From positions 1-34,434 of the forward strand of contig JACQFS010000119.1 in the NCBI GenBank assembly GCA_016199935.1: a DNA stretch of 34,434 bases, in the 5' to 3' direction. The notes beneath the pieces are model-generated. The model was not told where the DNA came from, searched no databases, and worked only from the letters and a program-made list of their open reading frames with translations. The translations under genes were made by a program, and so were the position numbers. Below, one piece after another: positions 15,124-33,823 of this stretch. The stretch's first letter is position 1. Each line of letters opens with the position of its first letter. This DNA comes from Verrucomicrobiota bacterium. Lineage in GTDB: Bacteria > Verrucomicrobiota > Verrucomicrobiia > Limisphaerales > JACQFS01.

Positions 15124-17538
15124 ATGAAACTCCATCGTCGGTTCGGTCCCGTTCTTCCCACCCTCGTGCTCGCCCTGTTCGCGGTCTCCGGCTTTGCCGC
15201 CGACGCGAAGAAGCCCGCCAAGAAGGACGCAAAAAAGGCTGAGGCGAAAACGGACGCGCTGGGCCGGCCCAAACCGCAATACGACGACGTGATCCTCAAC
15301 AGCATGGATCACGGGCCGTTTTACTCGGGCGTCTTCAACGGGCGCGACCTCTCGCTCAAGGGCATCGCCATCAAGCTGGATGGCGGGAAGGCCGGCATTG
15401 TTTTCGACACGCTCACGCTGCGTTACGGCGACGGCTGGACCGGCGGCTTCATCCAGATCAACGGCGAGCGCACCCTCGGCTGCAACTCGACGCCCGTCGG
15501 CGACCTCGCGTTCTCCACGCACCCCGGCCCCGGCTGGGCGAAGGGCGGCGCGTTCGACGCGCCGCGTCCGCGTTACGAATCCACTCCGGGCCACGACAAG
15601 AAGCACGACGTCGCCGCGCACAAGGGAATCTGTGACGGCCCGCTGCCGCGCGAGTGGGCGAAGTGGAAGGGGATTTACCGCAACGGCGAGAGCGTGGTGC
15701 TCACCTACTCCGTCGGAACGGCGGACGTGCTCGATTTGCCCGGCTTGGAAAATCGCGACGGCCTCGCGCTCTTCACGCGCACGCTGCACGTGAGCAAGAG
15801 CAGCGAGCCGCTCATCGCGCTCATCGCCGAGGACGCGAGCGCGACGGCCAAGACGGACAACGGCATCGTCACGCTCACGACCACGAACGGCACCGTGGCC
15901 ATTGGCGTAAAACGCTCGAAGGCTTCGAAAGGTGTGAAGCTCAGTGTCGCCGACCATGGCCGCGTGCTGCTGACGATAGAGAACACCCCGAGGGCGCACA
16001 CCGTGCAGGTAGTCATCGCGAAACTCGCCGATAGCAACACCGCGAAATTTTCCGCCGCGCTCAAGAGCTACAGCCGAATGCCCGAACTTGCAAAGCTCAT
16101 CCAGCCCGGGGCGCCGATCTGGCCGCAGACCGTCACGCTCAAGGGCACGGTGCCGCTCAGTTCCGAGCCTTACGTGTCCGACACGATTCCCGTGCCCGAC
16201 CTCGACCTGAATCCTTGGAAGTCCTGGATCCGTTGCAGCGGCTTCGACTTTTTCTCCGATGGGCGCCTGGCGATCTGCTCGTTGAGCGGCGACGTGTGGA
16301 TCGTCTCCGGCCTCGACGCGAAGCTCGACAAGGTGACGTGGAAACGTTTCGCCTCGGGCCTGTATCAGCCGCTCGGCCTGAAGATCGTGAAGGACCAGGT
16401 GTTCGTCCTCGGCCGCGACCAGCTCACGAAGCTCCATGACTTGAACCACGACGGCGAGGCGGACTTCTACGAGAACTTCAACAACGACGTCGCGATCTCG
16501 GAGTATTACCACGAGTTCTGCCTGAACCTGGAGACGGACTCGAAGGGCAATTTTTATTTCACCAAGGGCGGCAACCTCGGCCCCGCGACGCACCCGCATC
16601 ACGGCTGCCTGCTCCGCATCGCCGCCGACGGCTCGAAGCTCGACGTGGTCGCCACCGGCCTGCGCGCGCCCAACGGCATGGGCATGGGCTTGCACGACGA
16701 AGTCTCCACCGCCGACAACGAAGGCAACTGGGTCCCAGTCTGCCGCGTGGACCTCGCGAAGCCCGGCGCGTTTCTCGGCCACGTCTTCACCGCGCACCGC
16801 GACCAGCCACCGGCCAATTACGGCAACCCGCTTTTCTGGATCGCCTACAACCAGGACAATTCCTCCGGCGGCCAGGTCTGGGTGAACAACGACCAATGGG
16901 GACCGTTCAACGGCGACATGCTGCACATGAGCTACGGCAAATGCGCGCTCTTCAAGACGTGGAAGCAGGACGTCGGCGACGTGGTGCAGGGCGGATACGT
17001 GCGCTTCCCGCTCACGTTCGATTCCGGTGTCATGCGCGGGCGCTTCAGCCCGTTTGATCACCAGCTTTACACCTGCGGCCTGAGCGTGTGGCAGTCGAGC
17101 GGGGCGAGGAAGGGCGGCTTTTATCGCGTGCGCTACACCGGCCGGCCCGTGGTGATGCCCACGCAGCTCGTCGTGAAAAAAAACGGCGTCGAGATCACCT
17201 TCACCGGGCCGCTCGATCCGGAGACCGCGAAGGACACGGGCAGCTACGCCGTGGACCAGTGGAATTACAAATGGGCACAGGACTACGGCTCGAAGCTCTA
17301 CTCGGTGAAGGACCCGACGAAGGCGCTGGACAAAAGTCTGGAGCGCGCCAGCGGCGACGAGGTGCAGGTCAAGTCCGCGAAACTTTCCAACGGCAACAAG
17401 ACCGTCTTCCTTGAATTCGGCGAACCAGTCGTGCCCGTGATGGAGCAGCACGTGCGCTTCAATCTGAACGACGCGAACGGCAAGCCGCTCAAGGTCACGG
17501 AACTTTTCCACACCATTAACCGCGTGCCGGCAAACTGA
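15124..17538 (+). CDS. Exported DUF6797-type beta-propeller protein
   Basis: An 804-residue protein with a signal peptide (MKLHRRFGPVLPTLVLALFA, then VSGFAADA) and a Lys/Ala-rich linker (~residues 28-43). The N-terminal ~300 residues (DDVILNSMDHGPFYSGVF, GRDLSLKGIAIKLDGGKAG, YGDGWTGGFIQINGERTLG) match the DUF6797 region found in Planctomycetes and Verrucomicrobia. Residues ~355-680 look like the beta-propeller of sorbosone/glucose dehydrogenase-like proteins: GFDFFSDGRLAICSLSGDVW, LYQPLGLKIV, LRAPNGMGMGLHDEV and RGRFSPFDHQLY. No CxxCH haem site is present, unlike many relatives. The last ~120 residues are a beta-rich tail. It opens the long plus-strand series that includes ThuA, DUF1549/1553 and DUF1501. 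A periplasmic role in sugar oxidation or binding is inferred. Confidence 0.82.
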   Translation: MKLHRRFGPVLPTLVLALFAVSGFAADAKKPAKKDAKKAEAKTDALGRPKPQYDDVILNSMDHGPFYSGVFNGRDLSLKGIAIKLDGGKAGIVFDTLTLRYGDGWTGGFIQINGERTLGCNSTPVGDLAFSTHPGPGWAKGGAFDAPRPRYESTPGHDKKHDVAAHKGICDGPLPREWAKWKGIYRNGESVVLTYSVGTADVLDLPGLENRDGLALFTRTLHVSKSSEPLIALIAEDASATAKTDNGIVTLTTTNGTVAIGVKRSKASKGVKLSVADHGRVLLTIENTPRAHTVQVVIAKLADSNTAKFSAALKSYSRMPELAKLIQPGAPIWPQTVTLKGTVPLSSEPYVSDTIPVPDLDLNPWKSWIRCSGFDFFSDGRLAICSLSGDVWIVSGLDAKLDKVTWKRFASGLYQPLGLKIVKDQVFVLGRDQLTKLHDLNHDGEADFYENFNNDVAISEYYHEFCLNLETDSKGNFYFTKGGNLGPATHPHHGCLLRIAADGSKLDVVATGLRAPNGMGMGLHDEVSTADNEGNWVPVCRVDLAKPGAFLGHVFTAHRDQPPANYGNPLFWIAYNQDNSSGGQVWVNNDQWGPFNGDMLHMSYGKCALFKTWKQDVGDVVQGGYVRFPLTFDSGVMRGRFSPFDHQLYTCGLSVWQSSGARKGGFYRVRYTGRPVVMPTQLVVKKNGVEITFTGPLDPETAKDTGSYAVDQWNYKWAQDYGSKLYSVKDPTKALDKSLERASGDEVQVKSAKLSNGNKTVFLEFGEPVVPVMEQHVRFNLNDANGKPLKVTELFHTINRVPAN

Positions 17539-17545
17539 GCGGCGG

Positions 17546-17587
17546 AGGAACGCGGCGTTCACGCCGCTTCCGTGTCCGTCGTGCGGC
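17546..17587. repeat. Dispersed palindromic repeat, copy 2
   Basis: GCGGCG-TTCA-CGCCGC (17552-17567) followed by TTCCGTGTCCGTCGTGCGGC. Same layout and tail as 12861-12905. It lies between the DUF6797 gene and the ThuA gene, within the 92-nt gap. Confidence 0.55.
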
Positions 17588-17630
17588 GGCGTGCGGCGCA
17601 GGAAACTTTTGTCCGCGCCTTGCGTCTGCC

Positions 17631-18545
17631 ATGTTCAATCACGCCAGGAACACCCGTTGCCCAACCCGCGCGCTGCTGCCCGCGGTTTTCTTTCTTCTGT
17701 TCTGCCTCGCAACCGCCGGCGCGTTTGCCGCCGACGCGAAGCCGCGCCGCCTGCTCATCGTCGGCCAGGGACCGGACGGGCATCCGCCCACGACGCACGA
17801 GTTCATGCCCGGCGCGAAGGTGCTGGCCGAGTTGCTCAAGCCCTTCCCCGAAATCCAGACGACCATCGCGAACGCCGACGAGCCGTGGCCGGAGGGACCG
17901 AAGCTGATTGATGCGGCCGACGGCATCGCGATGTTCGTGACGCAGGGCGCGCAATGGATGCAGGACGACCCGGCACGACGCGCGGCGCTCAAGCGGCTCG
18001 CGGCTCGTGGCGGCGCGGTCATCGCGCTCCACTGGAGCGTCGGCGCGAAGGACGCGAAATACATCCAGGGCCAGCTCGATTTGCTCGGCGGCACGCGCGG
18101 CGGCGAGCAGCGCAAGTATCAGAAGCTCGAAGTGGAGTTGAAGCGCGCGGATCCGAAGCATCCGATCCTCAGCGGCCTCGGTGACTTCAAGGTGTTCGAC
18201 GAATTTTACTACGCGCTCGACCGGTCGCCCGGCATCACGCCGCTGTTCACGGCCAACATTGACGGCCACGACGAGACCGTGGCGTGGTCGTGGGACCGGC
18301 CCGATGGCGGGCGCGCGTTCGGTTTCGTCGCGCTGCACTTCCACAGCAACTGGCAGTTGCCCGCCTACCGCCGCTTCGTCGTGCAAGGCGTCCTCTGGTC
18401 GCTCAAGCTGCCCGTGCCAGCCGGCGGCGTGAACGTGGACATTGATTCCAAAAAGCTGCAGCTCGACGGCGTGCTACCCCCGCCCGCCGGATCGGAAAAG
18501 GTGAAGAACACGAAGAAGGTGAAGGCGGAAAAGCCCGCCAAGTGA
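17631..18545 (+). CDS. Exported ThuA-domain protein
   Basis: A 304-residue protein. The N-terminus is a signal peptide (RALLPAVFFLLFCLATAGAF at ~residues 13-32). The following ~230 residues are a ThuA-like domain, a class-I glutamine-amidotransferase-like fold linked to trehalose and other sugar use in bacteria: RRLLIVGQGPDGHPPTTHEF, ARGGAVIALHWSVGAKDAKY, LGDFKVFDEFYYALDRSPG, and GRAFGFVALHFHSNWQLPAY, then RRFVVQGVLWSLKLPVP. The C-terminus has a Lys-rich tail. Its reaction is not established in general; a role in keto-sugar catabolism has been proposed for the family. The stop TGA at 18543-18545 overlaps a GTG at 18542, though the preferred start of the next gene is further on. Confidence 0.88.
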   Translation: MFNHARNTRCPTRALLPAVFFLLFCLATAGAFAADAKPRRLLIVGQGPDGHPPTTHEFMPGAKVLAELLKPFPEIQTTIANADEPWPEGPKLIDAADGIAMFVTQGAQWMQDDPARRAALKRLAARGGAVIALHWSVGAKDAKYIQGQLDLLGGTRGGEQRKYQKLEVELKRADPKHPILSGLGDFKVFDEFYYALDRSPGITPLFTANIDGHDETVAWSWDRPDGGRAFGFVALHFHSNWQLPAYRRFVVQGVLWSLKLPVPAGGVNVDIDSKKLQLDGVLPPPAGSEKVKNTKKVKAEKPAK

Positions 18546-18667
18546 GCGGTGCCGGCGGCGAAGGAGGTTCGGCGTGCGATCGCGAAACGGAACTGGCGAA
18601 GGCGAGCCGGCTGCCGCATGATGCCGCGTCCCTTGCCACGACTTTGAAAGCCAACACGCAACCCATC

Positions 18668-20896
18668 GTGAAACCATCGGCGAACCGGTGGCCCGGCGGA
18701 GTTTTGCTTCTGCTCGTCTGGCTGGCGCTCGCGGTCGCGCCGGCGAAGGCCGCGACCGAGTTCACCATCACCGACGCCGACCGAAAGCATTGGGCCTTTC
18801 AACCCGTCACGCGTCCCACTCCGCCAGTCCTGGTGCACTTCGCGCCGGGAGTTCAAAATCCGATCGACCTGTTCATCCGATCCAAACTCGAAGCCGCGGG
18901 GCTCCATCCTTCGCCGCCCGCGGGCAAGGCCGCGCTCATCCGCCGCGTCACGTTCGACCTCATTGGCCTGCCGCCGACGCCCGCGGAGATTGATGCGTTC
19001 GTGAACGACCCGTCGCCAAAAGCTTACGAAGCGCTCGTTGACCGCCTTCTCGCGTCGCAACACTACGGCGAACGGTGGGGCCGGCACTGGCTTGATCTCG
19101 CGCGCTTCGCCGAGACCGATGGCTTCGAGCACGACGCGATCCGCCCGCACTCGTGGCGTTACCGCGACTACGTCATCAAGTCGTTCAATGACGACAAGCC
19201 CTACGACCAGTTCATCCGCGAGCAAATCGCCGGCGACGAACTCTACGCGAACTCGAAACCCGAAACTCAAAACCCGGAACTTTTAGTGGCCACCGGTTTC
19301 AATCTGCTCGGCCCGGACATGGTGGACAGCTCCGATCAGATTCAGCGCCGTCACAACACCCTCAACGACATGACCGACACCGCCGCGCTCGCGTTCCTCG
19401 GCCTGACGATGGGTTGCGCGCGCTGTCACGACCACAAGTTCGAGCCGCTCTCGCAGCACGACTACTACGCGCTGCAGGCCTTCTTCACGCCCGCGAAATT
19501 CCAGCGCGAGCAGCCGATTCCGACTCCCGATGCGCGGGTGGCCTACGACGCTGCGATGAAAAAGTTCAACGAGCACCCGAAGGTCCGTGAACTCACCGCC
19601 CTCGAAGGGCCCGTGCGCGAGAAAATTTTCAGCCAGAAGACTGCGAAGCTTGCGCCCGAAGCGCAGGTCGCGCACCGCACGCCGCCGGAAAAGCGCGACG
19701 CCGAGCAGGCGAACCTCGTGCTCGAAACGGAGGACAAGGTGAAGATTTCAGACAAGGACCTCACGGCGGCATTCAGCGGCGAAACGAAGACGCGGCGGAA
19801 GGAATTGCTGGATGAAGTGAAGTCGCTGCCCAAACCGCCATCGCTCCCGAAGGCGATGGCGCTCACGCAAGGCGACGCCTCCACCGCGAAGACCTTCATC
19901 CTCCGCCGCGGCGAATACAGCCAGCCGGGCGAGGAAGTGTCGGCGGGATTTCCGACCGTTCTGGTGTCCAGCCTTCAGGCTGCTTCGGCGGGGAACAGGC
20001 TGAAGCCTGGACACCAAGCGCATTCCCGCGCCGCACTCGCCGACTGGATCGCTTCGCCCACCAACCCGCTCACCGCGCGCGTGATGGTCAACCGCATCTG
20101 GCAGCACCATTTCGGCCGCGGCCTCGTGGCGACCCCGAGCGAGTTCGGCACGCACGGCGCGAAGCCGTCGGACCCGGAGTTGCTCGACTGGCTGGCGAGC
20201 AAGTTCATCGCGCGCGGTTGGAGCGTGAAGGCGATGCACAAGCTCATGCTCATGTCCGCGACGTATCGGCAAAGTTCGTTTGGAGTCCCGCCTTCAGGCG
20301 GTTCGGCGGCCGGGGACAGACTGAAGGCTGGACTCCGAACCGACCCCGACAATCGCCTGCTCTGGCGCATGAACCGCCTCCGCCTCGAAGGCGAGGCCAT
20401 CCGCGACAGCCTTCTGGCTATCAGCGGCCAGTTGAATCCGCAGATGTTCGGGCCGGGTGTTTTCCCGCCGATCCCGAAGGAATCCATCGCGGGCGTGAAG
20501 GGCGGCTGGCCGCAGAACGACCACGTGCGCGAATACTCGCGCCGCAGCATCTACATCTTCGCGCGCCGCAATCTGCGCTTCCCCTTCCTCGAAGTCTTCG
20601 ACGCGCCGGACAACAACCTGAGCTGCCCCGCGCGCGAACGCAGCACCACCGCGCCGCAATCGCTCACGCTGCTCAACGCGGACGAAGTCACGACCGCCGC
20701 GCGCCTCACGGCAGAGCGTTTGAAAGCGGAGGGCAAGTCCGCTGACAAGCAGATCACGCTCGCCTATCGGCTCGTCCTCGGCCGTGCGCCCACGGCAAAC
20801 GAACTGGCCCTCGCCCGCGAATTTCTGGCGCAGTCGCCGTTGAATGAGTTCTGCCGCGCGCTGTTCAACCTGAATGATTTTGTTTATCTGGAATGA
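18668..20896 (+). CDS. Exported DUF1549/DUF1553 protein with CxxCH motif
   Basis: A 742-residue protein, counted from the GTG at 18668, which directly precedes a signal peptide (WPGGVLLLLVWLALAVAPAK). A GTG at 18542 that overlaps the ThuA stop would add 42 residues of unlikely sequence. The N-terminal part is DUF1549: NPIDLFIRSKLEAAGLHPSP, RRVTFDLIGLPPTPAEIDAF, HYGERWGRHWLDLARFAETD, and GCARCHDHKFEP, in which C250-A-R-C253-H254 is a c-type haem site. The C-terminal part is DUF1553: ANRIWQHHF-like VNRIWQHHFGRGLVATPSEF, LMLMSATYRQSS, DPDNRLLWRMNRLRLEGEAI. These proteins usually pair with DUF1501 proteins, as here. The leading cytochrome domain seen in many relatives is missing. Two palindromic DNA elements are read through in frame (residues ~433-450 and ~539-557). 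Confidence 0.88.
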   Translation: MKPSANRWPGGVLLLLVWLALAVAPAKAATEFTITDADRKHWAFQPVTRPTPPVLVHFAPGVQNPIDLFIRSKLEAAGLHPSPPAGKAALIRRVTFDLIGLPPTPAEIDAFVNDPSPKAYEALVDRLLASQHYGERWGRHWLDLARFAETDGFEHDAIRPHSWRYRDYVIKSFNDDKPYDQFIREQIAGDELYANSKPETQNPELLVATGFNLLGPDMVDSSDQIQRRHNTLNDMTDTAALAFLGLTMGCARCHDHKFEPLSQHDYYALQAFFTPAKFQREQPIPTPDARVAYDAAMKKFNEHPKVRELTALEGPVREKIFSQKTAKLAPEAQVAHRTPPEKRDAEQANLVLETEDKVKISDKDLTAAFSGETKTRRKELLDEVKSLPKPPSLPKAMALTQGDASTAKTFILRRGEYSQPGEEVSAGFPTVLVSSLQAASAGNRLKPGHQAHSRAALADWIASPTNPLTARVMVNRIWQHHFGRGLVATPSEFGTHGAKPSDPELLDWLASKFIARGWSVKAMHKLMLMSATYRQSSFGVPPSGGSAAGDRLKAGLRTDPDNRLLWRMNRLRLEGEAIRDSLLAISGQLNPQMFGPGVFPPIPKESIAGVKGGWPQNDHVREYSRRSIYIFARRNLRFPFLEVFDAPDNNLSCPARERSTTAPQSLTLLNADEVTTAARLTAERLKAEGKSADKQITLAYRLVLGRAPTANELALAREFLAQSPLNEFCRALFNLNDFVYLE
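19963..20015. repeat. In-frame palindromic element A inside a coding sequence
   Basis: 53 bp with 20-bp arms (18 of 20 paired) around a 13-nt loop: GGTGTCCAGCCTTCAGGCTG ... CAGGCTGAAGCCTGGACACC. It is read as VSSLQAASAGNRLKPGHQ, a stretch that breaks the otherwise conserved entry into DUF1553 (… GFPTVL | AHSRAALADWIASPTNPL). It is homologous to element B at 20282. Confidence 0.8.
20282..20336. repeat. In-frame palindromic element B inside the same coding sequence
   Basis: 55 bp with 20-bp arms (17 of 20 paired) and a 15-nt loop: GGAGTCCCGCCTTCAGGCGG ... CAGACTGAAGGCTGGACTCC. The loop TTCGGCGG is shared with element A. It is read as GVPPSGGSAAGDRLKAGLR between YRQSS and DPDNRLLWR, a junction that is normally short in this family. 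Confidence 0.8.
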
Positions 20897-20934
20897 GCGC
20901 GCCGCGCGTCTGAGTTTTTGATTCGTTGACCACC

Positions 20935-22386
20935 ATGAACACCTGCCCCGGCCCCAGCGGCTTCAACACGCGACCCGCGTCGCGCCGCGCGTTCCTGCAA
21001 CGAGCCGGCAGCGGCTTCGGCATGGTGGTGCTCACGTCATTGCTCGCCCGCCAGGGTCTGCTCGTTGCTGAAGAATCATCGGTCGTCGCAAACCCGCTCG
21101 CGCCCAAATCGCCGCACTTCGCTCCCAAGGCGCAGCGGGTCATCTTCCTCTTCATGTCCGGCGGGCCGAGCCACATGGACTTGTTCGACCCGAAGCCGGA
21201 ATTGATCCGCCTCGCGGGCCAGCCGATCCCGGAATCGTTCGGGAGCTTCAAGACGCGGCGCGCGGTGGCGAAGAACAAACTGCTCGCGCCGTGCCGTCCG
21301 TTCCGCGCGCGCGGCCAGTGCGGCATGGAGATCTCGGATTTTCTCCCGAACATCGCGCAGCACGCCGATGACCTCTGCCTCTTGCGCGGCTGCTACGGCG
21401 ACAGCGTCACGCATCCCGAGTCGGTGTATCTGATGAACACCGGCACGATTCTCATGGGCAAGCCGAGCCTCGGCGCGTGGGCGACCTACGGCCTCGGCAC
21501 TGAGAATCAAAACATGCCGGCCTTCGTCGTGATGCCCGACCCGTCGGGCTGGGTGAAAGGCGGCGCGCCTGCGTGGAGCAACGGTTTTCTGCCCGCGACG
21601 TATCAGGGCACGATCCTGCGCGGCGGCGAGTCGCCGATTTTGAATCTCAACACGCCAAAGGGCGTGAGCGCGCAGCAGCAGCTCGCGACGGTGAATCTCG
21701 TGAACCAGTTGAATCGCGCGAGCCTGCCGGCGGGCGAGGAAAATTCCGAACTCACCGCGCGCATTGCCGCTTACGAACTCGCGTTCCGTATGCAGTCGCA
21801 TGCGCCCGAGGTCGTGGACATCTCGAAGGAGAGCGCTGCGACGAAGAAACTCTACGGCCTCGACAGCAAGACCACGGCGGAGTTCGGCCTGCGCTGCCTT
21901 TTCGCGCGGCGGATGCTCGAACGCGGCGTGCGCTTCGTGCAGCTCTACTGCGGCGACACCAACGGTTGGGACGGCCACAGCGACGTCGAAGGCAATCACG
22001 CGAAACTTTGCGCGCAGAGCGATCTGCCCGTCGCCGGTCTGCTGAAGGATTTGAAATCGCGCGGTCTGCTCGAATCCACGCTCGTCGTGTGGGGCGGCGA
22101 GTTCGGCCGGATGCCGATGAGCGAAGGCTCCAACGGCCGCGATCACAACCCGCACGGCTTCTGCCTCTGGCTCGCGGGAGGCGGCGTGAAGGGCGGCCAG
22201 GTCATCGGCGCGACCGACGCCGTCGGCCTGCGCGCCGTCGAGGAGAAAACGCACGTCCACGACATTCACGCGACCATTCTCCATTTGCTCGGCCTCGATC
22301 ACACGCGCCTCACCTATCGCCACAACAGCCGCGACGAGCGGCTCACCGACGTGTCAGGCAACGTGATCACCAAGGCGCTGGTGTGA
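20935..22386 (+). CDS. DUF1501 (sulfatase-like) protein with Tat signal
   Basis: A 483-residue protein. The ATG at 20935 is chosen over the in-frame TTG 9 nt earlier. The N-terminus carries a twin-arginine motif (SRRAFLQRAGSG, residues 17-28) followed by a hydrophobic stretch, so export as a folded protein is likely. The rest is DUF1501, distantly related to alkaline phosphatases and sulfatases: RVIFLFMSGGPSHMDLFDPK near residue 65, ARRMLERGVRFVQLYCGDTN, GWDGHSD, ESTLVVWGGEFGRMPMSEGS, GRDHNPHGFCLWLAGGGVKG, and a C-terminal HDIHATILHLLGLDHTRLTY. It lies 38 nt after the DUF1549/1553 gene; this pair is one of the most frequent gene pairs in planctomycete and verrucomicrobial genomes. The substrate is unknown. 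Confidence 0.92.
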   Translation: MNTCPGPSGFNTRPASRRAFLQRAGSGFGMVVLTSLLARQGLLVAEESSVVANPLAPKSPHFAPKAQRVIFLFMSGGPSHMDLFDPKPELIRLAGQPIPESFGSFKTRRAVAKNKLLAPCRPFRARGQCGMEISDFLPNIAQHADDLCLLRGCYGDSVTHPESVYLMNTGTILMGKPSLGAWATYGLGTENQNMPAFVVMPDPSGWVKGGAPAWSNGFLPATYQGTILRGGESPILNLNTPKGVSAQQQLATVNLVNQLNRASLPAGEENSELTARIAAYELAFRMQSHAPEVVDISKESAATKKLYGLDSKTTAEFGLRCLFARRMLERGVRFVQLYCGDTNGWDGHSDVEGNHAKLCAQSDLPVAGLLKDLKSRGLLESTLVVWGGEFGRMPMSEGSNGRDHNPHGFCLWLAGGGVKGGQVIGATDAVGLRAVEEKTHVHDIHATILHLLGLDHTRLTYRHNSRDERLTDVSGNVITKALV

Positions 22387-22429
22387 TTGCCTCGCGTCCG
22401 GTGCGCTCCGGCCTCGGCATTTTACCTCC

Positions 22430-23605
22430 ATGAAACTGACTCCAATGAAAACGAAACTCCACCTCCTCGCCTCCGCCGCCTTGCTCGCGGCTGCCCTCTG
22501 CCTGCCGGCATTGCCCGCGTCGGCCGCGCAACCAGTCCAGCCCATCGCGGCCAAACTCCAGCCGTTCGTTGACAGCCACACGCTCGCCGGCGCGGTGACA
22601 CTCGTGGCGAACAAGGACAAGGTGCTCGACCTCGAAGCCGTCGGCTTCATGGACGTGGCCGCGAAGAAGAAGATGCGCACCGACTGCCTGTTCTGGATCG
22701 CGTCGCAGTCGAAGCCCATCACCGCGTGCGCGCTGATGATCCTCGTGGACGAGGGCAAGGTGAACGTGAACGACCCGGTGGAAAAATATCTGCCCGAGTT
22801 CAAGGGCCAGATGGTCGCGGTGGAGCAGGACGCCGAGCACGTGCTGTTGAAGAAGCCGAGGCACCCGATCCTTGTGCGCAACATTCTCAGCCACACGAGC
22901 GGCCTGCCTTTCAAAACGGCGATCGAGGAGCCGACGCTCGACTTGTTCCCGCTCGCGCTGCGCGTGCGCAGCTACGCGATGACGCCGCTCCAGTTCGAGC
23001 CGGACAGCAAGTATCAATACAGCAACGCCGGCATCAACACCGCCGGCCGCATCATCGAAGTGGTGAGCGGGATGCCGTATGAAAAGTTTCTGGAGACGCG
23101 CATCTTCAACCCGCTCGGCATGAAGGACACGACCTTCTGGCCGACGAAGTCGCAAATCCGCCGGCTCGCGAAAGCCTACAAGCCCAACGCCAAGAAGGAC
23201 GGCCTCGAGGAAGTGCCCATCGGCCAGCTTCATTACCCACTCAACGACCCGATGCGCCAGCCGATGCCCGCGGGCGGACTGTTTTCGACGGCGAAGGACC
23301 TTTCGCTTTTCTACCGCATGATCGCCAACGGCGGCGCGTTCAACGGCCAGCGCATTCTTTCCGAGGAAGCGTTGAGGCAGATGACCTCCAAGCAGACGGG
23401 CGAGCTCAATACCGATTACGGTTTCGGTATGAAAGTGGGCAAGACCATCGGCCACGGCGGCGCGTATGGCACGAACTCGTCGTGGGACCCCGAGCACGGG
23501 CTGATCACAATCTACCTCATCCAGCACGCGGGCTTCGGGCCGGAGGGCAAGACGATCCTCCCGGCATTCGTGAAGGCGGCGACCGATCTGTTCGGCGCGC
23601 GATAA
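22430..23605 (+). CDS. Exported serine hydrolase, class C beta-lactamase/esterase family
   Basis: A 391-residue protein with a signal peptide (residues ~7-33, LHLLASAALLAAALCLPALP then ASAAQ). A second ATG at 22445 is an equally good start. The beta-lactamase/transpeptidase fold is marked by S92-Q-S-K95 (SxxK nucleophile motif, in WIASQSKPIT), Y197-S-N199 (YxN, in YQYSNAG) and GHGGAYGT near residue 344 (the HxG counterpart of KTG). Other family blocks are LVRNILSHTSGLP, IFNPLGMKDTTFWP and PAGGLFSTAKDLSLFY. Members include esterases, D-aminopeptidases and beta-lactamases; in this cluster an esterase acting on an exported substrate seems more likely than antibiotic resistance (inference). It lies 43 nt downstream of DUF1501 on the same strand. 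Confidence 0.9.
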   Translation: MKLTPMKTKLHLLASAALLAAALCLPALPASAAQPVQPIAAKLQPFVDSHTLAGAVTLVANKDKVLDLEAVGFMDVAAKKKMRTDCLFWIASQSKPITACALMILVDEGKVNVNDPVEKYLPEFKGQMVAVEQDAEHVLLKKPRHPILVRNILSHTSGLPFKTAIEEPTLDLFPLALRVRSYAMTPLQFEPDSKYQYSNAGINTAGRIIEVVSGMPYEKFLETRIFNPLGMKDTTFWPTKSQIRRLAKAYKPNAKKDGLEEVPIGQLHYPLNDPMRQPMPAGGLFSTAKDLSLFYRMIANGGAFNGQRILSEEALRQMTSKQTGELNTDYGFGMKVGKTIGHGGAYGTNSSWDPEHGLITIYLIQHAGFGPEGKTILPAFVKAATDLFGAR

Positions 23606-23651
23606 ACAACGACCAACATAGCACGGCAAACTTTCAGAAAACAAAACGACC

Positions 23652-24606
23652 ATGAACTCACGCGAACTCCCCCAACCTCACCGCCGCCTCGTCACCTTGC
23701 GTGCATTGACCGCACTCGTCGCGGTTACCGCGACCCTCACGTGCGGCAACCTGTTCGCTCAAGTGGACGGCCAGGCAAAGAACGCGAACGCCGCGAAGCC
23801 CGCTGCCAAGCCGTTCACGTTGCCCGCGGGCATCCGCATGGAGAAGGACATCTCTTACATCCCCGACGGCGATGAGGCGCAGAAGCTCGACCTTTATCTC
23901 CCGGAGCAGCCGTCGGACAAACCGCTCCCGCTCATCGTCCACATCCACGGCGGCGGCTGGCGCGGCGGGAGCAAATTTCCCTGCCCCGTGGCGATGATGG
24001 TGCTCAAGGGCTACGCCGTCGCGAGCGTCGAGTATCGCTTCAGCCAGAAGGCGATTTTCCCCGCGCAGATTCAGGATTGCCAGGCCGCCATCCGCTGGCT
24101 CCGTGCCCGTGCGAAGCAATACAACTTCGATCCCGAGCGCGTCGGCGCCGTCGGCAGTTCGGCGGGCGGGCACTTGTCCGCGCTCGTCGGCACGTCGGGC
24201 GGGAAGAAGGCCTTCGCGCCCATCGGCGGACATGAGGAACAGTCCGACCGCGTTCAAGCCGTGTGCGATTACTTCGGGCCGGCCGATTTCACGACCGTCG
24301 TGCAGCAGGCCGACGCCGACAAGAACGTGCGGAACATTTTCAAGTTCAATACGCCCGCCGATCCCTACTCGTGCCTGACCGGCGCGGACCTCTCGGACAA
24401 ATCAAAGAGCGACGCAAAAAGGCGTCGAGGCGTGGTTGCAAAAACTTCCCGGCTCGGGTCACGGCGGCCCGGCGTTCAACAAACCGCCGCTCACGAAGCT
24501 CATCCAGAACTTTTTCGACAAACACCTCAAGGGTGCGGACGTGAAGCTCGCGCTCGTGCCGGAAGCGGAACTCGCCATCGAGCCGCCAAAGCCGGCGGCG
24601 AAATGA
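23652..24606 (+). pseudogene. Exported alpha/beta hydrolase (BD-FAE/carboxylesterase type), internally deleted
   Basis: From the ATG at 23652 the first frame encodes a signal peptide (LRALTALVAVTATLTCGNLF) and the N-terminal two thirds of an esterase: oxyanion HGGGW at 99-103, and the nucleophile elbow G168-S-S170-A-G172 in VGAVGSSAGGHLSALVG. After SDKSKSDA (~24417) the family sequence resumes only in another frame, 24418-24606: KGVEAWLQKLPGSGHGGPAF with the catalytic His, then FFDKHLKGADVKLALVPEAE. The expected segment with the catalytic Asp (the PPFLILHG-D type block) is absent. Ser-to-His spacing is ~100 residues where relatives have some 35-40 more, so I infer a deletion of roughly 110-125 bp (not a multiple of 3). 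The original stop, 24604-24606, still overlaps the next ATG. The damaged first frame runs into the next gene. Confidence 0.8.
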
Positions 24607-26003
24607 CCCGGGACCGCGTGAATCCCATGAGCACTCACCGACCGGCTTCGCTCGTCATCACTTTCGCCGTCAGCATGACGGTGCTTCTGTTCGCCCGCCG
24701 CGGAGAGACTGCCGACGAACCAACGCCCCGCGCTCGCCGCGCAGCCGCCGCGGCTGCCGGGGCCACGAACGCGCCCGCCGCCTCGAACCCGCCGCGCACC
24801 CGCCGTGCCTCCGCGACGAACGCAACTCCACCGGTTCCAGTTTCCACCGCGCCCGCGAAGCCGCTGACTGTCGGGCCGGAGGAACTCGTGGACTTCACCG
24901 ACCCGACCTACGGTTCGAAAATCCGCCAGCTCCGCAAGGACGACGGGCACGAGCACAACTTTTACTATTATCGCAATCCGTGGAACGCCGATGGCAGCTA
25001 CCTGCTCGGCGTCCAATCCGACCTCCAGCAGAAGAACTGGCATGTCGTGCTCCACGACGGCGACGGAAAATTCATCAAGGACCTTTTCACGATCGACCGA
25101 TACGACTGGCGACTTTGCTGGGACGGCAAAGACCCGGACATCCTTTACACGTGGAAGGGCAGCGATCTGTTCCGCTTCCATGTGAAGGACGGCAAGGCGG
25201 AGCTGATGAAATCATTCAAACCGCTCTCGCTGATGACCAGCGGCCCGTCGGTGAACCAAACGGGTGACCGCATCCTCGTCGCGACTTCGGACAAGACCTT
25301 CCGCTCGTATCATCTGCCGGACCTGAGCGACGAGCGCACCTTCCAACCGCAGATACCCAAGGGGGCGGTGATGATCGGCTGGGACAAGCCGCGCTTCACC
25401 GGCTACGGCAACACGATTGATGTCGCGTTCCATTCGCAGGACATGAAGACGCAGGGCGTGCTCGTGTATGACGACACGGGGAAGCTCGTGCATCGCCTCG
25501 ACGGCTTTGGCGGCGGTGGCCACTGCGCGTTCTCGCCGGATGGGCACGTCGCGTATTTTTTCATGCCCAACTATCCGCGCACCGACGGCAAGGACTCGCT
25601 CGACATCCACGTCGCGAAGCTGGACGGCAGTGAAGATCGCGTCGTGTTCAGCGTGCCGCGCGCGCAGGCGGCGCAGGTGCAGAACCTGCATCTCTCCTGG
25701 CCCGCGAAAGTGAACGGCTGGTTCCTCGCGTCGTTCTTTCATTTTCCGAACTCAACGCAGCCCGCCTACGCGCCGCTGTTCGATGAGATTCTGCAAATCA
25801 ATCTTGACGGCAAATTCAAATACCTCGCTCGCAGCGGGGCGAACTATTCTCGTGGCGCAGGCCGCGGCACGAGCACGGATATGTTCTGGGCGATGCCGCT
25901 CGCCGCGCCGCAGGCGGACGGGAAGCGGATCAGCTTCAACAGCAATCGTTCCGGCACGATTGATCAGTTCATTCTCTACGTGGATGGCGCGCCGAAGCGG
26001 TGA
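24603..26003 (+). CDS. Exported beta-propeller protein (PD40/oligogalacturonate-lyase-like)
   Basis: A 466-residue protein when started at the ATG at 24603, which forms an ATGA overlap with the stop of the original esterase frame. An ATG at 24627 (MSTHRPASLVITFAVSMTVL) gives a better-shaped signal peptide and is the main alternative. A ~65-residue Ala/Pro/Thr-rich linker follows. From ~residue 95 the chain consists of repeated beta-blade units: DFTDPTYGSKIRQLRKDDGH, FYYYRNPWNADGSYLLGVQS, RYDWRLCWDGKDPDILYTWK, GSDLFRFHVKDG, GGGGHCAFSPDGHVAYFF, SLDIHVAKLDGSEDRVVFSV, and ISFNSNRSGTIDQFILYVD at the end. This is the TolB/PD40-type propeller, which includes oligogalacturonate lyases. No specific catalytic residues could be confirmed, so binding or lyase activity stays open. 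Confidence 0.78.
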   Translation: MTRDRVNPMSTHRPASLVITFAVSMTVLLFARRGETADEPTPRARRAAAAAAGATNAPAASNPPRTRRASATNATPPVPVSTAPAKPLTVGPEELVDFTDPTYGSKIRQLRKDDGHEHNFYYYRNPWNADGSYLLGVQSDLQQKNWHVVLHDGDGKFIKDLFTIDRYDWRLCWDGKDPDILYTWKGSDLFRFHVKDGKAELMKSFKPLSLMTSGPSVNQTGDRILVATSDKTFRSYHLPDLSDERTFQPQIPKGAVMIGWDKPRFTGYGNTIDVAFHSQDMKTQGVLVYDDTGKLVHRLDGFGGGGHCAFSPDGHVAYFFMPNYPRTDGKDSLDIHVAKLDGSEDRVVFSVPRAQAAQVQNLHLSWPAKVNGWFLASFFHFPNSTQPAYAPLFDEILQINLDGKFKYLARSGANYSRGAGRGTSTDMFWAMPLAAPQADGKRISFNSNRSGTIDQFILYVDGAPKR

Positions 26004-26052
26004 ACGTCGCCGCTTTACTTGTTTCCCCAACCTCGGCCACCTTCGCGGCAGC

Positions 26053-28284
26053 ATGAGAACATTTCTTCTCGCCGTCATCGTGGCCGCGACTTTTTTTCCC
26101 GCCGCTGCCGCTGAACACACGCGCGCCGAAGTCATCGTCTACGGCGGCACGCCCGCGGGCGTGATGGCGGCGGTCGCCGCCGCGCGTCAGGGGCACACGG
26201 TCGCGCTCGTGGACCTCAACAACCACATCGGTGGCGTGGTGAGCGGCGGGCTCGTGGCGAGCGACATGGGCGACCGCAAGACCGTCGGTGGACTCGCGGA
26301 TGATTTCTTCAAGCGCATCGTGAAATTTTACGCGGACAAATACGGCGCAGCCTCGAAGGAGTTCAACGCCTGCCGCAACGGCGCGACGTTCGAGCCGCAC
26401 GTCGCCGAACTCATCTTCGACCAGATGCTCAAGGAGCAGCCGCGCGTGACCGTTTGGAAAAACTGCCGCTACCGCTCCGTGTTGCCCGAGACGGATCGCG
26501 CGGTGTCCGGCAATCGCATCACGGCGCTCATCGTGGACGACGTGGCGGCGAAGACCACGCGCACCTTCACCGGCGAGGTGTTCATTGACGCGAGCTACGA
26601 GGGCGACCTGATGGCCGGCGCGCACGTGCCGTATCGCGTCGGACGCGAGGCGCGCGCCGAGTTCGGCGAATATCTCGCGGGCGTCAGCATGGGGCCGAAG
26701 GAGCAGCGCGGCCTCGGCGACCAGCGCACGATGGCTTACAACTATCGCGTCACCGTCACGTCGAACACCGCCAACCGCGTGCTCTTTCCCAAGCCCGAGC
26801 ATTACGACCCGACGCCCTTTCTCGCGACGCACGGCAAGCGCATCAAGGAAGGCCGCGCGACGGGCTTCGGCAGTTTTTTCACGACCGTGGACAAGGCGCA
26901 TCCCGGCGGCAAATACGACGCGAACTGGTTCGACTGGCCGGGCAACAGCGAAGGCTACGCCGACGGAAATTGGGAAACACGCGACCGGATCGCGGCCAGC
27001 ATCCGCGACCGCGCGTTGAGCATGCTCCACTATTTGCAGAATGACCCCGAACTGCCCGAAGCCTTCCGCACCGAAGCGCGCACGTGGGGTTTGCCGGCGG
27101 ATGAATTCGCCGACAGTGGCCACTTTCCCTTCCAGCTCTACGTCCGCGAGGCGCGGCGGATGGTCGGCCGCCACGTGTTGCGCGAAGACGACCTCACGCA
27201 GAATCGCTGGAAGGCCGACGGCATCGCGACGGGCAGCTACGGCGTGGATTGTCACACGATCCAGTTTCTCCGCGAGGGCGACCGCCTCGTGCCCGAGCAC
27301 ACGCGGCACGTCGCGCTGAACAACTACGACATCCCCTACGCGAGCCTCGTGCCGCCGGACGTGGAGAATCTCCTCGTGCCCGTTTGCCTCTCCGCGACGC
27401 ACGTCGCCTACTGCTCGCTGCGGATGGAACCGGTGTTCATGATGCTCGGCCACGCCGCCGGCGACGCCGCGCATCTCGCGCTCACGAAGAAGACGAGCGT
27501 GCAAAAGGTGGACGCGCAGAAACTCCGTGGCCTCTTGCTCAAGGAAGGCGCGGTGCTCGACGCCGGTTATCAGCCGCAGGTGAGGATTTCCGTGACGCCC
27601 GCGCATCCGAAAGTGGGCGAGCACACGGTCATCAAAGTCGTTGCCGGCGCGTTGAAAGATCCGCTCAAGCAAATCGTGTGGGACTTCGACGGCACCGGAA
27701 AAGTTTCCGGCGAAGGCGAGCGCATCGTGCACGCCTTCGACCTCGACAAGATTTACAACGTCAGCGGGCTCGTCACCGACGCCGCGGGACGCCGCCGGCT
27801 CCTGACGACTGAAGTTGCCGTCGGTGCCGCGACCGCGCGCGACGTGACGGTGGATGATTTCGACGCCGACCTCGCCGGTCGCTGGGACGGCGCATTTCCC
27901 GAATTGGTCGCCGGCCTGCCGCTGCGTTACTCGGATGTTTTCCTCGGCCCCGGAGTCCATCGCGACGTGGCGCGCAAGGGCAAAACCTCGCCCGCGCGCG
28001 CCCGCTTTCAGCCGACCCTTCCGCGCGCGGGCCGCTACCAGGTGTGCATCGGATTCCGGCCGGCGAAAAATCAGGCGACGAATGTCCCCATCACGATTCG
28101 CCACGCGGGCGGCACCGCGAAGCTCACGTTGAACGAACGCAAAGAAACCACGCCGTTCAACTTCGTCCCCGTCGGCGAGTTTCAATTCAAGACGGGCGAC
28201 TCCGGCTTCGTGGAAATTTCCAACGGCAAGGCCGACGGCCGTGTCGTCGTGGACGGCGCGCGCTGGGTGTGGCTGGGTGAGTGA
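26053..28284 (+). CDS. Exported FAD-dependent oxidoreductase with golvesin-like C-terminal domain
   Basis: A 743-residue protein; the ATG at 26053 opens a signal peptide (MRTFLLAVIVAATFFPAAAA). The upstream frame is a shadow of the propeller gene. The FAD-binding Rossmann segment is EVIVYGGTPAGVMAAVAAAR (~residues 26-45), followed by NNHIGGVVSGGL and, further on, TFTGEVFIDASYEGDLMAGA, QLYVREARRMVGRHVL, NNYDIPYASLVPP and RMEPVFMMLGHAAGDAAHLA, all typical of the FAD_oxidored family. Residues ~515-600 form a PKD-like linker (IVWDFDGTGKVSGEGERIVH). The last ~130 residues match a golvesin C-terminal-like domain: GRWDGAFPELVAGLPLRYSD, LPRAGRYQVCIGFRPAKN, FNFVPVGEFQFKTGDSGFVE and GRVVVDGARWV. In related genomes such proteins sit in polysaccharide-use loci. 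Substrate unknown. Confidence 0.88.
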   Translation: MRTFLLAVIVAATFFPAAAAEHTRAEVIVYGGTPAGVMAAVAAARQGHTVALVDLNNHIGGVVSGGLVASDMGDRKTVGGLADDFFKRIVKFYADKYGAASKEFNACRNGATFEPHVAELIFDQMLKEQPRVTVWKNCRYRSVLPETDRAVSGNRITALIVDDVAAKTTRTFTGEVFIDASYEGDLMAGAHVPYRVGREARAEFGEYLAGVSMGPKEQRGLGDQRTMAYNYRVTVTSNTANRVLFPKPEHYDPTPFLATHGKRIKEGRATGFGSFFTTVDKAHPGGKYDANWFDWPGNSEGYADGNWETRDRIAASIRDRALSMLHYLQNDPELPEAFRTEARTWGLPADEFADSGHFPFQLYVREARRMVGRHVLREDDLTQNRWKADGIATGSYGVDCHTIQFLREGDRLVPEHTRHVALNNYDIPYASLVPPDVENLLVPVCLSATHVAYCSLRMEPVFMMLGHAAGDAAHLALTKKTSVQKVDAQKLRGLLLKEGAVLDAGYQPQVRISVTPAHPKVGEHTVIKVVAGALKDPLKQIVWDFDGTGKVSGEGERIVHAFDLDKIYNVSGLVTDAAGRRRLLTTEVAVGAATARDVTVDDFDADLAGRWDGAFPELVAGLPLRYSDVFLGPGVHRDVARKGKTSPARARFQPTLPRAGRYQVCIGFRPAKNQATNVPITIRHAGGTAKLTLNERKETTPFNFVPVGEFQFKTGDSGFVEISNGKADGRVVVDGARWVWLGE

Positions 28285-28291
28285 GCCATCG

Positions 28292-28337
28292 CCCGGGAGC
28301 GCCGGCATCCTGCCGGCGGGATGCCGGCGCTCCCGGG
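28292..28337. terminator. Perfect 19-bp hairpin between oxidoreductase and ALDH-like genes
   Basis: CCCGGGAGCGCCGGCATCC (28292-28310), loop TGCCGGCG, GGATGCCGGCGCTCCCGGG (28319-28337): a perfect 19-bp stem. It starts 7 nt after the oxidoreductase stop. It has no T-run, so it may be a repeat element with a terminator or 3'-end-protecting effect. It marks the likely end of the exported-protein series. Confidence 0.6.
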
Positions 28338-28370: not shown

Positions 28371-28398
28371 CTTTGAACTTTGAACTTTGAACTTTGAA
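28371..28398 (+). repeat. Four tandem copies of CTTTGAA
   Basis: Four perfect 7-bp units (28371-28377, 28378-28384, 28385-28391, 28392-28398). The third and fourth units overlap the TTGAAC used as -35 candidate for the ALDH-like gene, so copy number would change promoter surroundings but not the core spacing. Confidence 0.85.
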
Positions 28399-28421: not shown

Positions 28422-29294
28422 ATGTCCTCACGCCTTGATGTCCGCAAGACCTACAAGCTCTACGTGGGCGGAAAATTCATCCGCAGCGAGAGCGGCAAAT
28501 CCCTCACCGCCCACGGCCCCGACGGCGCGGCGCTCGACAATTACGCGTGGGCCTCGCGCAAGGATTTCCGCGACGCCGTCGTCGCCGCGCGCACGGCGCA
28601 CGAGGGCTGGGCCAAGGCCAGCGCCTACAACCGCGGCCAGATTCTTTATCGCGCCGCGGAGATGCTCGAAGGCCGGCACGAGGACCTCGCGCGCGAGGTG
28701 AGCCGCTCGCACGGCGTGACGATGGACAAGGCGCGCAGCGGCGTCGCGACGGTGATTGACCGCCTCGTCCACTTCGCGGGCTGGACCGACAAATATCAGC
28801 AGGTCTTCGGCAGCGTAAATCCAGTCGCCTCGCCGCACTTCAACTTCACCACGCCCGAGCCGATGGGCGTCGTCGTCATCCTCGCGCCCGACGTGCCCGT
28901 GATGCTCCCGATGATTTCGCTGCTCGCGCCTGTAATCCTCAGCGGCAACGCGGCCATCGTCATTCCGTCCGAGCGCGCGCCGCTGCCGGCGCTGACCTTT
29001 GGAGAAATTTTGGCGACGAGCGACCTGCCCGGCGGCGTGGTGAACATCCTCACCGGCAAACGCGACGAACTCGCGCCGCACCTCGCGACGCACATGGACG
29101 TGAACGCCATCGTGGACGGCGCGGGCATTCCCGAACTCAGCGCGAAACTTCGCGCCGGCGTGGCGACGAATCTCAAGCGCTACGTGAATCGCTCGCTCGC
29201 CGAGGAGGAATGGTTCACCGCCAAGGCCGAGGACCCGTATTGGATTCTCGACACGATCGAGTTCAAGACCGCGTGGCACCCGATCGGAGTGTGA
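28422..29294 (+). CDS. Short aldehyde-dehydrogenase-like protein without catalytic domain
   Basis: A 290-residue protein, against ~480-500 for a normal aldehyde dehydrogenase. It begins MSSRLDVRKTYKLYVGGKFI and contains ASRKDFRDAVVAARTAHEGW, NRGQILYRAAEMLEG, HFNFTTPEPMGVVVILAPDV and NAAIVIPSERAPLPALTFGE, then ATSDLPGGVVNILTGKRDEL. These are the cofactor-binding half of the fold. The chain ends EFKTAWHPIGV, before the catalytic Cys region. I recall short homologues with the same KTxWHPxG ending next to a full-length aldehyde dehydrogenase and deoC in Actinobacteria, so this is probably a natural short form rather than a fresh truncation. Here no full-length partner is adjacent. No signal peptide, so cytoplasmic, unlike the genes before it. 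It converges with the ankyrin gene, with 28 nt between stops. Confidence 0.85.
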   Translation: MSSRLDVRKTYKLYVGGKFIRSESGKSLTAHGPDGAALDNYAWASRKDFRDAVVAARTAHEGWAKASAYNRGQILYRAAEMLEGRHEDLAREVSRSHGVTMDKARSGVATVIDRLVHFAGWTDKYQQVFGSVNPVASPHFNFTTPEPMGVVVILAPDVPVMLPMISLLAPVILSGNAAIVIPSERAPLPALTFGEILATSDLPGGVVNILTGKRDELAPHLATHMDVNAIVDGAGIPELSAKLRAGVATNLKRYVNRSLAEEEWFTAKAEDPYWILDTIEFKTAWHPIGV

Positions 29295-29322: not shown

Positions 29323-32300
29323 TCAGCGGACGGGAATCCGGTTGGTCATTCCGACGGGCAGGCCCGGACGAATCGAAAACGATGAGGGAGAAAGAAAACC
29401 ATTCGTGCCGGGCCGGGCGCCGTGGTCGCGGAGGAAAGCGATCATGTTCGTGCGCATCAGCGCATTCGTCCAGACGGGCGCAGGCCCGCCCAAGACCGAC
29501 GGCGGCGGCCCCATCGGCCATTGGACCAGCGCTAGCGCGGTCCGCCCATTTACCGTCGCGAGTTCGAGCTGCGCGCCGTGGGCGAGCAGCAGCGCCACGA
29601 AATTTGTGTCGCCCCGCAGCGCGGCGAGATGAATGGGACCGAAGCCGCCATCCATCAAACCCAGCACTCTTCCGGTGCCGCGGACGGCTTCGCGCGCGTT
29701 GGGGTCTGCGCCGTGATCCAAGAGCAGGCGCGCGCCGTCCGCCGCGCCGATCGCGGCGATGCAGAACAAAGGCGGGCGCCCGAGCGTATTCGTCGCGTTG
29801 ACCGAAGCCCCGGATTCGATCAGCCATTCCATCACCTCACGCTGCCCGGCCGACGCCGCCTCGACCAGCGCCCGATCCAGCAATGGAGCGGAGCCATTGG
29901 CGCGCACGAATTCCTTCACCACCGCGAGGTGGCCGAGCCGCACGTCATCCGTGAACGAGAGCCGCGCGCCCGCGGCCCGCAGCGCCTCGGCGATCCGCGC
30001 CTGTCCGCGACGCTCGGCGCGGCCGAGCAGCGACTCGCCGGTCGCGGCGTTCATTTGATTGGCCGTCCATCCGTGCGCGAGCAGAAACTCGACGGAGGCG
30101 AGCTGCCCGGCATCAATCGCCGCCACCATCGCGCCCGTTGTGGAAGAGCGGTAGCTGGCCTGGGGCGACGAGGAGTCGGGATTCGCCAGCGCCAGGGCCA
30201 GCTCGTTGGTGCGCCCCAACTGCGCGGCCATCGTCGCGTCGAGCCGCGCGCCCGCGGTGATCAACCGCTCGACGACTGCGGTCTGGCCGCGGATGGAAGC
30301 CTGTTGGATCAACACACGATCGAAGTGCGCCGGCTCGGCCAGCCGCGGCTCGCGCCGGAGGTATTCGTCAATGAGGTCGAGTTCGCCGGACTCGATGGCC
30401 TCGCGAAAACTGTGCGCGCGGCCCGGAAGTCTCAGCTCGTTGGGGTTCAGCCCGCGCGCGGTGCCGGCGAGGAGGAGCGGCGATTCGCCCAGCCGGTTGG
30501 TCACCATCGGGTCCGCGCCTTTGGCCGCGAGCAGCGAGACGAGGTCGTGATTGCCCGAGCGCAGGGCGAGATGCAGCGCCGTGTCGCCGTGATCATCCTG
30601 CGCATTGAGCCGCGTTCGCGCGGTGACCAGTGCGTTGCCAATGTTATCCTGCGCGTCCGGCCGATTTCGCCCAATGACCTTCGCGGCACCAGACGCGCGC
30701 ATGAAGAACAGTGGCTGCTTGTCGAGCTTCGCCAGGTAATGCAGGGCGGTCTGTCCGGCGGCATCCGTCGCGTTGACATCGGCACCCGCCGCCACGAATT
30801 GTTTTGCCTGATCCGCCACGCCATCCCAAGGCCAGCTCCGTTTGAGGAGCAAATGCAGCGCGGTCCGGCCCGAAGCATCGCGCGCATTGTGCGACACCAG
30901 CAAGGATAGCAGCGACACGTCTTCACCCGGTTTCGCGGGAGTCGCGGGCGTTGCCCCCCCGGATGCCCGCCGGGAGTCGTTTTGCAAAGCCCATTCGATC
31001 AGCGACTGGTCCTCGTCGAATTCGATGTTCGGGCTGGCCCCTTTCTCCAGCAGCATCCGCGTCACCGGCAGCGACCCGAGCGCCAAGCGCAACACTGGCT
31101 GCCCGTTGGTGGTGCGCCGATTCGGATCGGCTCCCTGATTGATGAACAGCCGGGTCAGCTTTTCGTCACCGCGCAGTGCGGCCAGCATCAACGGTGTGAT
31201 CCCATCCTTGTTACGAACGTCAACCCGGACGCCGTAGGCGATGATTGCCTCGGCGCATTTGAGCGCCCCAACGTTCGCGGGAGGGGCATTCGGCAGAAGG
31301 GTCGCCTGGGAACTAATCCGCTCGGACCGGACGAAGCTCGCGAACACGTCTTCCGTCGTGCATCCCGCCACCGCCGCGTAGTGCAGCGCCGTGTTCCCTT
31401 CGCGATCCACCGCGTTGACGTCCGCGCCCGCGCGCACGAGGCGCGCGAGATTGGTGAGCCACTGGTTCGTCGGCGCGCCGCCGGAATGATTCACCATCGC
31501 CAGTTTGTGCAGCGGCGTCTGGCCGAGCGCGTTGGCCGCCTTCACGTTCGCGCCGCGCCGGAGCAGGAAGCCGAACACATCCGCCTGCGTCTGCGGCGGC
31601 GGCCAGGTCGCGGGCACTGGCGCGACCTTCGGGCGGAACGGGCGCGTAAGCGATGTCAGCCACGGCGCTTTCGCTTGCGCGTTCTGCCACCACGTCGGCG
31701 GGGGCGGCGGGACCGGGACGAAATTGTTTTCCAGCATCGCGCGCAGGTGCAGCAGGGTGTCGCCTTGCTGGTTGGTCGCGTTGAGGTTCGCGCCGGCGTC
31801 GAGCAGCGTTTCCAGCACGGCGAAATGTGTCGTCGGAAACCCGGGTTGCCCGCCCGCGGCGAGGTGCAGCGCCGGATGTCCGTCCACATCGCGCGCGTCA
31901 ATCTTCACGCCGCGCTTGAGGAATTCCTTCACCAACACCGGGTCGCCCACCCGCGCCGCGAGATGCAGCGGCGTGGTGACGTTGGTTCCGCCTTTGGAAA
32001 ACTGCGCGCCGCGATCCAGCAGTTGGCGCACGGCCGGCAGTTGGCGGGCGGCGACCGCATGCGTGAGCGCGTTCCACCCGCGCGGGTCCACCGCATTGAC
32101 CTGTGCGCCGGCGGCGAGCAGCGCGCCGAGCGAGCTCATTTCGCCGCGCACGGCCGTCATCATTAGCGGCGTTTGCCCGCCGCGGTTCGTGGATGTGCGC
32201 GCCTCAATGGGCGCGCCCAGACTCAGGAGCAGCGCGGCCAGGCCCTCGTTGCGAAGTTCCAGCGCGAGGTGGAGTGGCGTGAAGCCGGTGGTGTTCGTGA

Positions 32301-33756: not shown

Positions 33757-33823
33757 GGCTGGATCTGCTTTGACCGTAGCCGCAAGGCCCCGACGATTCA
33801 ATGCTCATCCGCCCGCGCGCCGT

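Follow-up and report, generated by a model that had tools for sequence, protein, structure and literature searches.

A probable recent deletion pseudogene of a secreted esterase whose shifted frame runs into a downstream propeller-like gene in a Verrucomicrobiota contig

Overview

The window analysed here, a 34,434-nucleotide stretch of a Verrucomicrobiota bacterium contig (JACQFS010000119.1), contains an open reading frame that begins as a secreted esterase and ends as a propeller-like protein. We favor, with moderate confidence, the view that this frame marks a recent deletion pseudogene of an ordinary secreted esterase, and that the propeller-like protein probably continues to be translated from a start of its own. 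The features on which this view is built are the following.

23652..26003, + strand: accidental fused reading frame, 783 aa (783 codons) with no internal stop
23652..24415, + strand: retained 5′ portion of the gene for a secreted BD-FAE-type alpha/beta-hydrolase esterase (PF20434 match, orthologue identity)
24410..24427, no strand: inverted repeat of 6 bp around a 6-nt loop (CGACGC AAAAAG GCGTCG), spanning the junction
24415..24418, + strand: deletion junction, net 116 bp lost relative to nine of 11 orthologues and 119 bp relative to two of 11, frame shift of 2
24417..24602, + strand: Arg-rich linker (the fused-frame reading of the esterase end DNA), 62 residues, 12 of them Arg
24418..24606, + strand: orphaned esterase end in the old frame, KGVEAWLQKLPGSGHGGPAF...PAAK, which includes the expected His and ends with TGA at 24604–24606
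24627..26003, + strand: probable secreted protein, beta-propeller-like, that has a start and a hydrophobic signal-like segment of its own; PD40 match below the cut-off

Loss of an Internal Segment of the Esterase Gene

The esterase start spans the first ~254 residues of the fused frame. It belongs to the BD-FAE family (PF20434), with a score of 155.6 bits against a gathering cut-off of 26.8 (E 1.7e-45, residues 79–224), and the match covers only profile positions 1–159 of 215. The N-terminus looks like a signal peptide by eye and has a computed hydrophobic peak. Two motifs in the retained part, HGGGW and GSSAGG, are taken by us to be the oxyanion motif and the nucleophile elbow, respectively. 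Over residues ~57–255, the retained part is 80–82% identical to its relatives L051, L052 and L050 (genome G025), the values for L051 and L052 being 82% and 80%.

For comparison we used eleven orthologues: two Verrucomicrobia MAG contigs (L051 and L052) and nine genomes of the same class, the latter from a search in which 10 of 384 genomes matched at E ≤ 1e-90, one of them being the window's own. An order-level set consisted of 57 other genomes, all of the same order, among which none from the window's genus or family was returned. A stop codon is reached in 10 of the 11 orthologues; the frame of the remaining one, L073, runs off its contig, and its C-terminal end is not whole. A further 25 esterase-like matches at E ≤ 0.001 lie in the window's own assembly.

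Between the DPYS and GV codons the window has a spacing of 49 nt (24372–24420), compared with 165 nt in nine orthologues and 168 nt in the other two. A base-by-base alignment of three orthologues shows the gap directly, the right edge of the junction being uncertain by 2–3 nt. Judged by this comparison, the deletion is well beyond what chance would give. The comparison with an intact relative, which the preliminary description had proposed as a check, thus found all eleven orthologues undeleted and bore out both the deletion around 24417, with a net 116 (or 119) bp gone, and the shift of the reading frame by 2 at the junction. Relative to all eleven orthologues, the gene carries the kind of frame-disrupting lesion by which pseudogenes are recognised.

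From what we know of the family, we presume the Asp of the conserved HGT(H/F)D motif to be catalytic. This motif lies in the missing stretch and aligns with HGDQD and HGDAD of the solved esterases 6nkf and 6xyc. The segment that carries it is kept in 11 of 11 orthologues and is absent from the window, which therefore lacks a part expected of an active esterase; the earlier claim that the expected catalytic Asp had been lost holds to the extent that its role is as presumed. When the window is set beside the solved PF20434 relatives (6nkf, which is Lip_vut4, and the acetyl xylan/carbohydrate esterases 6xyc and 6tkx), the N-terminal two-thirds with the oxyanion and nucleophile motifs are common to all. 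The His-containing end is also alike but orphaned in the window, whose gene is without the aligned-Asp segment and has its end out of frame.

When the surroundings (within 20 nt) of the two breakpoint positions are compared, none of the 11 orthologues has a direct repeat of more than 8 bp common to both, the repeats being judged from the orthologues alone. L077 and L079 have 8 bp common to both breakpoint regions. Collapse of a repeat at the breakpoints was therefore rejected, and an illegitimate deletion fits better. The inverted repeat across the junction is of doubtful significance, since comparable hairpins are found in 6.7% of the window's 40-nt stretches, and for this reason we do not press it as the deletion mechanism. 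A search of the window's own assembly for the missing segment returned no orthologue-like piece; it gave 14 weak matches at E ≤ 10, of which the first five are all in esterase-like paralogues and the best, in a paralogue, is 61% identical.

The Orphaned C-Terminal End Shows No Decay

Downstream of the junction the old frame can still be read. Its translation (KGVEAWLQKLPGSGHGGPAFNKPPLTKLIQNFFDKHLKGADVKL...) is a typical esterase end with a stop at 24604–24606, and the stretch GVEAWLQKLPGSGHGGPAF... (24421–24606, TGA at its end) matches the C-terminal end of the orthologues. On a codon-usage scale derived from nine genes of the window, the old frame across 24421–24603 scores +44.0 bits over 61 codons, the scored stretch itself being kept out of the training set. 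The His-containing end was thus rightly called recognisable, and it lies out of frame (shift of 2, old frame from 24418), as would not be the case in an active esterase.

The dN/dS of the orphaned end is 0.07–0.17 relative to eight of 10 relatives, which is similar to the 0.09–0.27 found among five undeleted orthologues (10 pairs); against L074 and L079, dS is saturated. These ratios, for which 10 of the 11 orthologues were used and L077 was left out, are rough, most dS values being above 1. As can be seen, the orphaned end shows no decay. It follows that the deletion is either very recent or an artefact. The preliminary description had called the event recent; this stands for a real deletion, but an error of assembly or a chimera would give the same picture.

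An Open Fused Frame Is about a Coin Toss

The shifted frame had been described as passing without a stop through the propeller ATG to give a product of 783 residues, and the frame at 23652–26003 is indeed open for all its 783 codons. The importance attached to this fusion is weakened, however, since 52–54% of window-gene stretches are stop-free in that shift. In nine window genes, 2151 of 3975 overlapping 61-codon stretches (54%) are open in the frame-shift class of the fusion, as are 38 of 69 non-overlapping ones, and among 15 ORFs chosen less strictly the count is 2807 of 5448 (52%). The other shift is open much more seldom (815 of 3975 in the same nine genes). When the ends of the orthologues are read in the shifted frame, five of 10 are open, L073 (cut by the contig end) being among the five and L077 being excluded from the count. 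Since about half of comparable stretches are open in that shift, the fusion is unremarkable and needs no special explanation: it requires only the right deletion length class and roughly even luck.

Across 24421–24603, the fused frame has a codon score of −46.6 bits, i.e., it scores as non-coding, and the linker, with 12 Arg among its 62 residues, has a computed pI of ~12. A second hydrophobic segment at residues 330–350 of the fused product is the propeller's own signal-like segment. The window has a single open frame over two once-separate genes whose relatives are unfused, as in a deletion-born fusion. Neither the three other propeller genes nor the 11 esterase orthologues yielded a fused relative. 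Since those three propeller genes, from one of 57 other order genomes and two of 383 other class genomes, are all unfused, the fusion is not shared by several of the genomes searched.

The Downstream Propeller-Like Gene

Two in-frame starts are available to the downstream gene, ATG 24627 and an alternative ATG 24603, the latter in the old ATGA at 24603–24606. Starting at 24627 gives a short, more usual signal-peptide-like N-terminus; by eye, neither start has an obvious Shine–Dalgarno sequence. The ATGA overlap noticed earlier is present as described, but its role as the propeller start is weakened, 24627 being at least as good.

The protein may be beta-propeller-like, as weak matches suggest. 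PD40 matches the window protein at 15.6 bits, below the cut-off of 20.9, and matches three of four propeller family members at E ≤ 10 (best E 1.4e-4). Searches of solved structures, by single sequence and by profile, gave nothing convincing (best profile E 0.091), NCBIfam gave no match, and a single-sequence fold of 24867–26000 had a mean pLDDT of 42, too poor to use.

Three relatives, L068, L069 and L070, are 43, 69 and 57% identical, respectively, and are separate genes. Since they come from only one of 57 other order genomes and two of 383 other class genomes, the propeller gene is sparsely distributed. There is no esterase near the three other propeller genes in the fetched loci (~1.5 kb of flank), and no esterase–propeller pairing was found in the other loci retrieved, most of which have ~1.5 kb of flank. 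A scan of 88 out of 91 loci, the remaining three being the window's own, found the propeller in only three.

Origin of the Fused Frame

The course of events that we consider most probable is an illegitimate, recent deletion by which an ordinary gene for a secreted esterase lost ~116 bp and would have become a pseudogene. The deletion would have taken out the presumed catalytic Asp segment and put the end with the presumed catalytic His out of frame, leaving the esterase inactive. Stops are rare in the shifted frame, the genome being GC-rich, and the propeller gene happens to share that frame, so that the broken frame continues past the old esterase stop and into the propeller gene. Most of the propeller protein would come from translation that begins at its own ATG (24627 or 24603). 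The read-through product, consisting of a signal peptide, two-thirds of an esterase, the Arg-rich linker, the second hydrophobic segment and the propeller, would be incidental and would probably misfold or be degraded.

The main competitor, to which we give a smaller but substantial share of belief, is an assembly or chimeric-read artefact, in which case an intact esterase and a separate propeller gene would exist in the organism or in the bulk of its population, the 116 bp having been lost in contig building. That a segment is missing, how long it is, that the frame is shifted and that the end is undecayed are all shown for this contig by comparison with the orthologues; the source assembly, however, is in 260 contigs with an estimated contamination of 4.33%, and the lesion may be absent from the organism. 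The lack of decay in the orphaned end is equally expected from an artefact, and the small hairpin on the junction and the fragmented state of the assembly also speak for one. Against it are the lack of a direct repeat longer than 8 bp by the breakpoints that could explain a collapse, the lack of an orthologue-like copy of the missing segment in the assembly, and the near-full Pfam domains in the neighbouring beta-lactamase, DUF1501, PSD1/PSCyt2, FAD oxidoreductase and DUF6797 genes. Pfam coverage in neighbours is partial for ThuA (52–208 of 209) and DUF7133 (70–188 of 385).

That the frame is a newborn functional fusion appears very improbable. Such a fusion, observed just after its formation in a lineage that is environmental and probably verrucomicrobial, would be a single secreted polypeptide under selection, in which the truncated hydrolase would deliver or tether the propeller. 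No stop interrupts the frame, and PMC12803068 puts deletion-born fusions in bacteria on record; yet the product would lack the presumed catalytic Asp segment, have the His-containing end in the wrong frame, carry a second hydrophobic segment inside it and be joined by a linker whose codon score is that of non-coding DNA, and the three other propeller genes and eleven esterase orthologues are unfused. We give still less credence to ribosomal frameshifting or other recoding that would bridge the frames and yield an esterase that still has its former C-terminal end. The undecayed old frame and an A5 run followed by GG at the junction would suit it, but the missing 116 bp code for a portion of the fold and for the presumed catalytic Asp, which a frameshift product would be without too, and the 11 orthologues read the region in one frame.

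A deletion pseudogene would have known counterparts. The frame-disrupted pseudogenes and singleton frame transitions of PMC3711429 and PMC11017572 likewise consist of a single non-triplet indel in one genome, with undeleted relatives and a readable old frame; the window differs in that its shifted frame happens to reach the next gene without a stop. PMC3711429 describes singleton frame transitions as common and as arising from recent indels or sequencing errors, and PMC11017572 attributes many such lesions to assembly errors. The deletion-born fusions of PMC12803068, a preprint, likewise turn two genes into one reading frame by deletion, but its screen has many genomes per case, whereas the window offers one assembly and a small out-of-frame deletion inside one gene, with no sign of retention. 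For many of its 44 fusions the preprint gives indications of selection, so that the fate of such a frame need not be loss. The kind of event is thus already known, to which the window adds a further example at most. Should the deletion be real, the window offers a clean case of a single deletion producing, in a GC-rich genome, a two-gene frame that annotation software would label a two-domain protein; it would then bring no new function but a caution for automated domain-fusion inference.

Gene Neighbourhood

The esterase and propeller-like genes are part of a same-strand run at 15124–28284 (+) that comprises DUF6797, ThuA, PSCyt2/PSD1, DUF1501, beta-lactamase-like, BD-FAE, propeller-like and FAD oxidoreductase genes, and which we would liken to secreted degradation clusters of Verrucomicrobia and Planctomycetes. 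It is followed at 28422–29294 (+) by a 290-aa aldehyde-dehydrogenase-like protein (PF00171, positions 16–210 of 461) that ends before the usual catalytic half. A second lesion in this gene was considered and rejected: 14 of 57 other genomes match at E ≤ 1e-40, and 13 of these 14 matches extend to its last or second-last residue, that of G025 reaching only residue 256. By this comparison, the protein is possibly a conserved aldehyde dehydrogenase pseudoenzyme. The opposite strand carries at 29323–33801 (−) a 1492-aa ORF made up largely of ankyrin repeats. Between the FAD oxidoreductase and aldehyde-dehydrogenase-like genes, a 23-nt inverted repeat without a spacer (28292–28337, 96% complementary) is followed by tandem CTTTGAA units at 28371–28398.
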